A stretch of 32,668 nt of DNA from Desulfurococcaceae archaeon. Its GTDB lineage: Archaea > Thermoproteota > Thermoprotei_A > Sulfolobales > NBVN01. The DNA lies in contig JAJHQR010000013.1 in assembly GCA_020833255.1 (NCBI GenBank), positions 1-32,668 of the forward strand. The letters are read 5' to 3'. Shown piece by piece: positions 10,441 to 13,046 of the stretch. The notes beneath the pieces were generated by a model, which searched no databases, was not told the DNA's origin, and saw only the letters and a list, made by a program, of their open reading frames with translations. A program made the translations under genes and the position numbers. The stretch's first letter is position 1, and the number at the start of each line of letters is the position of its first letter.

Positions 10441-10845
10441 CTATTTCTTTATTACAGGTATAAACTTCAGGCCGTAGTATATTAATCCGTTAGGGTCTTC
10501 GCTAGAGTACTTCCTTAAAACGGCTTCAACGCGGGTACCGATAGAGAGTTCGTTGAGGTCTACATCAGTTATCTCCCCGATTATTACAGGGCCTTCATCA
10601 AGTTTTACGAGACCTACCACCCTAGGTAAGTATTGTTCGCTGCCTTCAGTCCTGTAGTAAGATACCGTGTAATTAATCAACTCACCGAAGCCTCTAGACT
10701 CGATGTGTTCCACGTTTCGTGACCCGCAGTAAGGGCATTTAAGACGTTTAAGCGGCGCAACCCTACCGCAGTCCCCACACTTAGTTACGTATATCTTGTA
10801 GTGATTGTCTTTTAAGCGCCAGAAGATAGATATGGAGTGCTTCAT
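10441..10845 (-). CDS. DUF35 zinc-ribbon/OB-fold protein of the thiolase-HMGCS complex
   Basis: An N-terminal helix (HSISIFWRLKDNHYKIY) leads to a rubredoxin-like zinc ribbon CGDCG...CPYCG, then an OB-fold (about 60-130) with the LPRVVGLVKLDEG and GEITDVD strands. In methanogens the equivalent protein bridges acetoacetyl-CoA thiolase and HMG-CoA synthase and helps form a shared CoA site. A longer frame begins at 10875, but ATG 10845 overlaps the thiolase-like gene's TAA as TAATG and follows GGGTGG, so I take 10845 (134 aa). Position after HMGCS and thiolase genes is the conserved archaeal order and supports the role. Confidence 0.88.
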   Translation of the reverse strand: MKHSISIFWRLKDNHYKIYVTKCGDCGRVAPLKRLKCPYCGSRNVEHIESRGFGELINYTVSYYRTEGSEQYLPRVVGLVKLDEGPVIIGEITDVDLNELSIGTRVEAVLRKYSSEDPNGLIYYGLKFIPVIKK

Positions 10846-11975
10846 TAGACCCACCCCCTCAACAAAATTAGCCATGCGTTATTGTCAGGTCCCGACATCG
10901 CGTGAGCTAACGATATATCGCCGTCGTATTTTATCCAGCTAGTACCGCTCATCAACTCACGTAGTTCGTGAACCTGGTAGAGAGGAGTTGCCCCTACCGG
11001 GTGTCCCCTCGCCTTAAGACCTCCCCCGACGTTCAGATACGGCATCTCATCCACGCACTTCACGGCCTCACCTCTCGCGCAAATCTCTAAAGCCTCAATC
11101 GTTAGTAGCCCGTATATATCGTACGTGTCATACACGTTAACCGCTGTATTCGTCGTTAACTTAACCCCGTTCCTGCTGGAGAGTCTCTTGTAAGCAGCCG
11201 CTGTAGCGCTGAAATACGTCAGGTCATCACGTAAGTAGATAGGTAGGTTTACTGAGGACTCAACATCAACTAACTCGATGGGCGTCGTGCCAGCCTTCTT
11301 AGCAACCGATTCGTTAACCAGTAATAACGCGGCGGCGCCGTCGCTTGTCGGGTGGGAGTCCAGCATAGTCAGAGGTTCCGAAATCCTTAAAGCCTTGCTC
11401 AGAGAATCCGCTGATATAGTGAATTGGAGTTGGGCGTGAGGAGTCTTAACAGCGTTCTCATGCATTTTAATAGACCACTTAATTATGCTCTCTCTTGAAA
11501 CCCCGTACCTCCTCATATAATCGTTCATTATCAACGCCGCGTAATCAGACGGCGCCACGTTCTTAATCCCCTCAACCTCGTATTCAAGTATTTTCGCGTA
11601 GACTCTGTTAATGACCCAAGAAGGGTACTCACTCATTTTCTCAAACCCTACCACAAGCACCCTACTCGCTTTCCCAGACCTTATCAAAGCGTGGGCGTAG
11701 TCTAGAGCAACCGCGCCTGAAACCTCACCACTACTCACCGTCAACGCCTTAACGTTCCTAAACCCCAGGTTTTGAGCGATGTATGTTGACGGGTCGGCTT
11801 GATTAAGTATTGATTCAGAGAACGCCGTGGAGACTACGAGATACTCTATATCTGAGGCGTCAAGCCCTGAGTTAGCGAGCGTCTTACCCACCGCTTCATC
11901 TATTAAGACTAGGTAGTTCTTGTCGTAATGCCTGTCAACCTTAGTAACTCCACTACCTACCACGTAGGTCTTCAT
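10845..11975 (-). CDS. Thiolase-superfamily protein of the HMGCS operon, nucleophilic Cys replaced
   Basis: The 376 residues align with archaeal acetoacetyl-CoA thiolases: VLVVGFEKMSEYP, HENAVKTPHAQ, LTMLDSHPTSDGAAALL and NVGGGLKARGHPVGATP are all in place. The active loop that normally reads V-E-A-A-C-A-S-G reads VSSGEVSG, with Glu84 at the Cys position. The HDxF segment is YDTY, and the C-terminal GG-x-G/Cys region reads SGPDNN. The GHP catalytic His remains. Thiolysis or condensation by the usual ping-pong route therefore looks impossible; a scaffold or decarboxylating role is conceivable (inference). ATG follows GGTGATG 6 nt after the HMGCS stop, and DUF35 follows by TAATG overlap. Confidence 0.82.
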   Translation of the reverse strand: MKTYVVGSGVTKVDRHYDKNYLVLIDEAVGKTLANSGLDASDIEYLVVSTAFSESILNQADPSTYIAQNLGFRNVKALTVSSGEVSGAVALDYAHALIRSGKASRVLVVGFEKMSEYPSWVINRVYAKILEYEVEGIKNVAPSDYAALIMNDYMRRYGVSRESIIKWSIKMHENAVKTPHAQLQFTISADSLSKALRISEPLTMLDSHPTSDGAAALLLVNESVAKKAGTTPIELVDVESSVNLPIYLRDDLTYFSATAAAYKRLSSRNGVKLTTNTAVNVYDTYDIYGLLTIEALEICARGEAVKCVDEMPYLNVGGGLKARGHPVGATPLYQVHELRELMSGTSWIKYDGDISLAHAMSGPDNNAWLILLRGWV

Positions 11976-11981
11976 TCCACA

Positions 11982-13046
11982 TCACCATAAATTCCTGTGT
12001 ATGAGGTTTCTGAACTTAGCGTACTCCGCGTAAGATATGTATTTCTTACGAGCTATGAGCTCCTCCACTGTAGGCGCCTTACCCACCCTCTCTAAGACCT
12101 TATCCGTTACTAAGACGCTGATAGCGTCGGCTCCAGCGCCTGAGCCGAACGGAGCTACCAGGATCCTCTGGCCAGGCTTGGAATTCTCGAGGATCTTAGC
12201 TAAGCCTAAGAGAGCTGACGCGTTATACGTGTTACCGATCCACGGAGTCACTATACCTGGCAAGACCTTCTCTCTCGGAAACCCGAGCATCCTCCCCACC
12301 TGTAGGGGGAACTTACCGTTAGGTTGGTGGAAAACCGCGTAATCAAAATCACTTGGTTTAAGCCCTGACTCATTCATCAGCATCTTGACTGCGGACACTA
12401 TATGATGGAAGTATGCTGGCTCCCCGGTAAAGCCCTCGCCGTGTGCGGGATACCTGGAACCGTCCCTCCTCCAAAAATCTGGGGTGTCGGTAACGTAGGT
12501 AACTAAGCTCTCGAAGACCGCTACCGACTCGTCAGCAGGCCCAACCAAGTAAGCTGCGGCACCAGACGAGGCCGTCAGCTCTAGCACGTCCCCGGGGTTA
12601 GCTTGAGCGGTATCCGAGCCTATGGCCAGCCCGTACCTCACAGCACCGCTCTCAACGAGGGAGACAGATATTCTAATACCCTCACTCCCGGCTCTGCAAG
12701 CAAATTCCAGGTCTGTCGACAGCTTCTTCGCAGATATTCCTAGAGCGTCAGCTATTATTGTTGACGAGGGCTTAACAGCGTAAGGCTTTGACTCCGTGCC
12801 AACGAACACAGCACCGATATCTCCCGGGTTCACGCCAGCCCTCAATAACGCGGACCTAGCCGCGTACCAACCCATAGTAACCGTGTCCTCGTCAGCTCCT
12901 GCAACAGCTTTCTCCTCAATCCATATAGAGTCGGTGACTCGGTCGTCGAACCCCCACTGCCTCGCTATCTCCTTAGCTTTAATCCTGTAGACAGGTATGT
13001 ACGCACCCCAACCAACAATACCTACCCTAAACCTCGAGGATGTCAA
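11982..13046 (-). CDS. mvaS: Hydroxymethylglutaryl-CoA synthase (archaeal type)
   Basis: Condenses acetyl-CoA with acetoacetyl-CoA to HMG-CoA, the step before HMG-CoA reductase on the route to archaeal isoprenoid lipids. The 354 residues keep the catalytic set: Glu85 (GTESKPYA), nucleophile Cys117 (DLEFACRAGSEG) and His240 (FHQPNGKFP), plus the IGNTYNAS and GSGAGADA segments. It is the length of the short archaeal enzymes. TTG 13046 is the start. TATA-like AATAAAAGC on the minus strand (13077-13085) precedes it, so it heads a three-gene operon with the thiolase-like and DUF35 genes. Confidence 0.95.
   Translation of the reverse strand: MTSSRFRVGIVGWGAYIPVYRIKAKEIARQWGFDDRVTDSIWIEEKAVAGADEDTVTMGWYAARSALLRAGVNPGDIGAVFVGTESKPYAVKPSSTIIADALGISAKKLSTDLEFACRAGSEGIRISVSLVESGAVRYGLAIGSDTAQANPGDVLELTASSGAAAYLVGPADESVAVFESLVTYVTDTPDFWRRDGSRYPAHGEGFTGEPAYFHHIVSAVKMLMNESGLKPSDFDYAVFHQPNGKFPLQVGRMLGFPREKVLPGIVTPWIGNTYNASALLGLAKILENSKPGQRILVAPFGSGAGADAISVLVTDKVLERVGKAPTVEELIARKKYISYAEYAKFRNLIHRNLW

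Follow-up and report, generated by a model that had tools for sequence, protein, structure and literature searches.

A conserved thiolase-like subunit without the nucleophilic cysteine beside HMG-CoA synthase in an archaeal operon

Introduction

The complex of thiolase, HMG-CoA synthase (HMGCS) and a DUF35 protein is a textbook case of substrate channelling, and it performs the first step of archaeal membrane-lipid synthesis. The window analyzed here, a stretch of 32,668 nucleotides from a Desulfurococcaceae archaeon, carries the three genes side by side, and a sequence-only reading had noticed that its thiolase-like gene has glutamate where the nucleophilic cysteine is expected. Can this gene product still make acetoacetyl-CoA, and if it cannot, which gene does? 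If it is inactive, most hot-spring archaea of the group have a conserved subunit in place of the working enzyme at the entry to membrane-lipid synthesis. The annotation "acetyl-CoA acetyltransferase" would then be wrong, and the true enzyme would be a different gene. If most of the group carries a non-working operon thiolase, the channelling model fails there.

Results and discussion

The window operon and its partners

The window contig belongs to a draft genome that totals 1.33 Mb in 77 contigs and is estimated to be 99% complete. All three genes lie on the minus strand. The most upstream is HMGCS (P0002, 354 aa, 11982..13046), which scored 551 bits against the NCBIfam equivalog PRK04262 and, by residue check, has the catalytic Glu, Cys, His and Asn. 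The thiolase-like gene (P0001, 376 aa, 10845..11975), recognized by its Thiolase_N and Thiolase_C_1 domains and Cys-less by alignment, starts with ATG at 11975 and ends with TAA at 10845. The third gene (P0003, 10441..10845) codes for a ChsH2-type DUF35 protein with a zinc-ribbon and an OB-fold (Pfam zf-ChsH2 and OB_ChsH2_C); its probable start at 10845 was taken from a relative, L008, and the open frame reaches 10875. P0003 keeps the four zinc-ribbon cysteines, and its best solved match is chain E of 6esq. HMGCS and DUF35 are intact in sequence, as the earlier reading had stated. Because the gap between HMGCS and P0001 is 6 nt, and the stop of P0001 overlaps the probable start of DUF35 by 1 nt, we read the three genes as one transcription unit. 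The operon is flanked by genes for an oligopeptide ABC transporter and an aminotransferase.

The same HMGCS-thiolase-DUF35 set was kept in most loci of f1, f4, f5, f6 and f11 (f1 to f40 are family codes used for genome groups). The relatives with names in public records are an uncultured Sulfolobales MAG (80% identical) and Zestosphaera tikiterensis (57%).

Glutamate occupies the nucleophile position of P0001

Sequence homology assigned P0001 to the thiolase fold, with PF00108 and PF22691 above cut-off and a match to 7yvy at E 2.6e-40. The best NCBIfam model, PRK06064, gave 244 bits against a cut-off of 420, and AcCoTHIOL_METTL gave 177 of 600; these curated cut-offs discriminate weakly here, as the cysteine-containing thiolase P0005 described below also fell short of PRK06064 (411.8 of 420).

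When P0001 was aligned to 7yvy and 6esq by phmmer, and to 6esq by MAFFT, Glu84 (codon GAG, 11724..11726, minus strand) was placed at the nucleophilic cysteine of "EAACASG", within the loop G83-E84-V-S-G. In the alignments to 6ESQ and 7YVY, Tyr282 (TAT, 11130..11132, minus strand) stands where "VHDCF" has histidine. The second catalytic histidine, His325 of the GHP motif (CAC, 11001..11003, minus strand), is kept in "KARGHPVGAT". Both replacements had been named in the sequence-only reading, and the alignment that it proposed, with the solved complex 6esq, confirmed glutamate rather than cysteine at the active position. It had also described the C-terminal Gly/Cys loop as altered. The glycine pattern did change, from G-G-T-G-S-N in 7yvy to S-G-P-D-N-N in P0001 (residues 361-366, 10878..10895, minus strand), but a loop without cysteine was also seen in Cys-type relatives.

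No substitute cysteine of P0001 was conserved, even among the four closest relatives aligned, and another cysteine nearby was rejected as the nucleophile on this ground. An AlphaFold model of P0001 made from three sequences had a pLDDT of 37 and was discarded, and structure searches found no solved structure near an acid-type member.

Loss of the cysteine is the rule across the order

HMGCS loci were collected by searching 147 genomes of the order and 161 of the phylum, and the thiolases adjoining HMGCS were aligned for the loci fetched, which gave a counting set of 95 loci. Cysteine was absent in 77 of them. The nucleophile position was occupied by Glu in 36 loci, Asp in 31, Cys in 18, Gly in 6, and Ser, Thr, Gln and Leu in one each, so that the replacement was acidic in 67 cases and one of G/S/T/Q/L in 10. 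Acid types dominate f1, f4, f5, f6, f11, f19 and f27. Cysteine is kept in most of f7, in 2/3 f10 loci and in some f18 loci, and also in the loci read from f14, f16, f17, f21, f24, f30, f31 and f38. Every aligned HMGCS-adjacent relative from the window family has glutamate, except a second, foreign-looking operon copy, and two contigs with names of their own, CALIBI010000009.1 and NBVN01000004.1, have it as well. Replacement of the HDxF histidine by tyrosine is nearly limited to the window genus and its sister, with a few others, and most relatives keep the histidine. The earlier reading implied that the gene is peculiar, but loss of the cysteine is usual across the order and is seen again in other families of the phylum. 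The literature searched, which covered few subscription journals, gave no account of archaeal operon thiolases that lack the cysteine.

A quick maximum-likelihood tree, built without the two catalytic columns, placed 37 acid-type and three other (f8) sequences in one group with a weakly supported base. Apparent separate losses of cysteine were seen in G018 (Leu) and in a clade of f18, f22, f33 and f35 (Gly, Ser, Thr, Glu).

An origin of Glu84 in a sequencing or assembly error, or in a decaying pseudogene, is conceivable in a draft genome of 77 contigs. We rejected it as extremely improbable, because the same residue occurs in many genomes, the frame has full length and dN/dS is about 0.1. Pairwise values for the thiolase-like gene within the genus were ~0.08-0.12 after pairs with saturated dS were set aside; between the window and its closest relative, dN was 0.10 and dS 1.3. 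These values indicate that the gene is under purifying selection and is not decaying. Of the HMGCS genes, 136/136 have the catalytic Cys, His and Asn, and 134/136 have the Glu.

An operon of HMGCS, a cysteine-containing thiolase and DUF35, either extra or replacing, was observed at L039, L040 and L085, in two genomes of the window genus and one of f9. Its HMGCS is about 55% identical to that of the window, and the operon looks horizontally acquired.

Conserved residues of the acid-type subunits

In thiolases, the histidine of the GHP motif activates the nucleophile. All 22 Cys-type sequences have this histidine, whereas it was lost in 31 of the 68 acid-type sequences, where the position is H in 37, Y in 20, N in 10 and F in one. 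Loss of the nucleophile together with frequent loss of its activating histidine argues against thiolase chemistry. We therefore consider it very improbable that P0001 still works as an acetoacetyl-CoA thiolase, be it with another nucleophile or by a Cys-free mechanism. The f8 genomes, in which no Cys thiolase was found, hint that a Cys-free route may exist there, but P0001 has no conserved cysteine and, f8 aside, nearly every genome has a Cys thiolase at another place.

The pocket itself is well conserved. N315, K321, D283 and H172 are invariant among the 68 acid-type sequences, W167, M171 and Y333 are near-fixed residues of their own, and the HDxF histidine is kept in 56 of the 68. With the pocket retained, these proteins may still bind a ligand or catalyze another reaction. 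The strongest alternative to our main reading is a repurposed active site, in which the acidic residue and the retained pocket would run an aldol or retro-aldol, hydrolytic or decarboxylative step on an acyl-CoA. The preference for E/D among the 77 Cys-less cases fits such a catalyst, as do at least one further acidic replacement in another group of thiolases (G010, below), the frequent retention of the HDxF histidine, and the invariance of N315 and K321. The window genus has the motif Y282-D-T-Y, which fits YDx(F/Y) and resembles the YDxF/Y catalytic motif of the aldolases Ltp2 and Sal (PMC12329534). However, apart from a few other cases the tyrosine occurs only in the window genus and its sister, and most relatives have histidine; 10 operons have Gly, Gln, Leu, Ser or Thr at the nucleophile position; and no neighbor suggests a substrate or pathway, the partner being HMGCS. 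We consider a repurposed catalyst unlikely on balance. The proposal of different chemistry by analogy with Cys-to-Gln ketosynthases is in keeping with the acidic bias and the invariant pocket residues, but has no direct support.

Cysteine thiolases elsewhere in the genomes

A search for a second thiolase, suggested by the sequence-only reading, found two in the window genome. One, P0005, lies on contig C11 (16590-17744) and has all catalytic motifs (VEGACGSGG, HDAYT and GHPVG); the other Cys thiolase is on C30. Among the scored genomes, a separate Cys thiolase was present in 68 of 73 with a Cys-less operon thiolase, compared with 4 of 16 with a Cys-containing one. Fisher's test gave p 4e-8 for this association, a figure that ignores shared ancestry. 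The ancestry-aware test of independent pairs had only three pairs, which were uninformative or in the expected direction, and gave no significance. Three f1 genomes (G084, G105 and G109) were scored by homology to relatives whose cysteine was read; in most of the remaining f1 and classical cases, the cysteine had been read directly, either in the same genome or in close relatives.

The type of the separate enzyme differs among families. Among the f4, f5, f6 and f11 genomes with an operon thiolase that was read and scored, all have a classical thiolase, and the 20 aligned sequences from the search for classical thiolases all had cysteine. In f18, f22, f33 and f35, a further SCP2-type Cys thiolase is present in the genomes examined. 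Genomes with a Cys-containing operon thiolase mostly have no other Cys thiolase. G018, the one f7 genome with a Cys-less operon thiolase, has a classical thiolase that is absent in most of its f7 relatives. No Cys thiolase was found in the five f8 genomes, which are all five exceptions among the 73. In their loci (L077-L081, L208-L210, L249 and L255), the operon thiolase has Gly, Gln or Glu, and a second thiolase is of a Ser type similar to PDB 4YZO.

In some families, HMGCS stands without an adjacent thiolase. The f9 loci (L082-L098 except L085) have HMGCS and DUF35, the f2 (L047-L052) and f3 (L028, L035 and L036) loci have HMGCS alone, and in all three families a C11-type Cys thiolase lies elsewhere in the genome. 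This indicates that HMGCS is not always in need of a thiolase next to it.

A mirror-image operon at the C11 locus

At C11 of the window genome, a probable HMGCS relic (P0004, 257 aa), the Cys thiolase and its own DUF35 are arranged in a row in this order (L004:5836-8147, plus strand). P0004 had no Pfam or NCBIfam match above cut-off. Proteins encoded at the corresponding position of three f1 genomes (L176-178) matched HMGCS (hhalign E 1e-24; profile hits to E 3e-12) and also the P0004 group (E 3e-11, reverse 1e-16). The P0004 group alone did not match HMGCS by hhalign or profile, and the link runs through the g5/g8 relatives. P0004 is, on these matches, likely homologous to HMGCS. In a joint alignment, all 14 relatives lack the catalytic Cys, His and Asn of HMGCS. 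For the three pairs whose dS could be measured, dN/dS of the P0004-type gene was ~0.07-0.12.

At one locus, 14 f1 genomes thus pair a live-looking thiolase with a probable HMGCS relative that is catalytically dead. As far as catalytic residues tell, the window operon mirrors the C11 locus, as its HMGCS is intact and its thiolase lacks the cysteine. The two versions of the operon that probably exist in f1 would complement each other in what they lost: thiolase catalysis in one, HMGCS catalysis in the other.

In genus g3, profiles recognized no HMGCS relationship for the upstream ORFs (L179/L180, 222 aa). The genes upstream of the Cys thiolases in L214 and L222 were on sight enoyl-CoA hydratase-like, not HMGCS. 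The C11-like operon thiolase of G010 (L037:2484-3704, plus strand) has Asp at the cysteine position; it falls within the C11-like group with modest support, and its Cys-to-acid change was apparently independent. In G152, a DUF35 domain is fused N-terminally to an HMGCS-like protein of 511 aa (L164:2562-4094, plus strand), and other distant HMGCS matches are open frames of similar length. Contig C48 of the window genome codes for a ketoacyl-synthase-III-like protein with a "SCAN" cysteine motif (L007:74-1063, plus strand), beside a gene that looks like a CoA-transferase.

A probable non-thiolase subunit with a separate supplier

We consider it reasonably probable that P0001 belongs to the HMGCS-DUF35 complex as a conserved subunit without thiolase function, and that acetoacetyl-CoA comes from a separate thiolase. 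P0001 would be unable to form the acetyl-cysteine intermediate. A separate Cys thiolase, in this genome most likely P0005 at C11, would make acetoacetyl-CoA, and the window HMGCS would use the product. Through DUF35, the Cys-less subunit might give structural support to HMGCS, help to form the shared CoA-binding interface or act in regulation. We infer the inactivity of P0001, its assembly with HMGCS and the role of P0005 as supplier from sequence comparison. The earlier suggestion of a scaffold, with the real thiolase elsewhere, agrees well with the Cys thiolases on C11 and C30 and with the association across genomes.

Several points do not sit easily with this reading. The acidic bias and the invariant N315, K321, D283 and H172 exceed the needs of a bare scaffold, and the source of acetoacetyl-CoA in f8 is unexplained by a separate supplier. 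HMGCS also does without an adjacent thiolase in f9, f2 and f3, and the association across genomes depends in part on shared ancestry. A possible, though not favored, extension is that the acid-type subunits form a distinct repurposed or regulatory family, and that the mirror operons of f1 cooperate, each with one ancestral activity. The products of the two operons might even co-assemble into a mixed complex, with inactive and active subunits paired like the dimers of ketosynthase and chain-length factor. Both operons keep thiolase-like, HMGCS-like and DUF35 genes in the 14 f1 genomes, but such a complex would not be general, since f4, f5, f6 and f11 have a classical thiolase as the separate enzyme, and there the DUF35 arrangement is absent. 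We regard a mixed complex as improbable. With P0001 as a non-thiolase subunit supplied from elsewhere, the two operons would offer a clean example of a duplication followed by complementary losses.

Comparison with known systems

A thiolase fold without the cysteine is also seen in the putative acyl-CoA acyltransferase PDB 4YZO (TSGSGG). That protein, however, is of a Ser type on a separate branch of the tree, and the f8 members of this branch were not beside HMGCS in the loci examined. The steroid aldolases Ltp2-ChsH2(DUF35) and Sal-Shy(DUF35) (PDB 6OK1; PMC12329534) share with P0001 a thiolase fold with a changed active site, a DUF35 partner and the YDxF/Y motif. They differ in acting on steroid thioesters and in having hydratase neighbors, whereas P0001 lies near HMGCS, an ABC transporter and an aminotransferase, and most relatives of P0001 have His, not Tyr, in the motif.

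The solved thiolase/HMGCS/DUF35 complex has the same three genes, each window chain has it among the closest solved structures, and the DUF35 and HMGCS residues are kept. The nucleophile of its thiolase is Cys85 (PMC6392133). This residue is Glu in P0001, and the HDxF histidine is Tyr; the first reaction of the channelled pair should therefore be missing in the window operon.

We found no precedent in the literature searched for an intact HMGCS with a Cys-less thiolase. A three-subunit plan with one catalytically dead partner is known from PhlABC (PpATase) of Pseudomonas protegens (PDB 5M3K), in which the HMGCS-like PhlA lacks the catalytic residues and the thiolase-like PhlC is active (PMC6392133). 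The C11 locus, with a probable dead HMGCS relative, a Cys thiolase and DUF35, shows the same pattern. The window operon reverses it: HMGCS is intact, and the thiolase-like subunit is the one without the cysteine.
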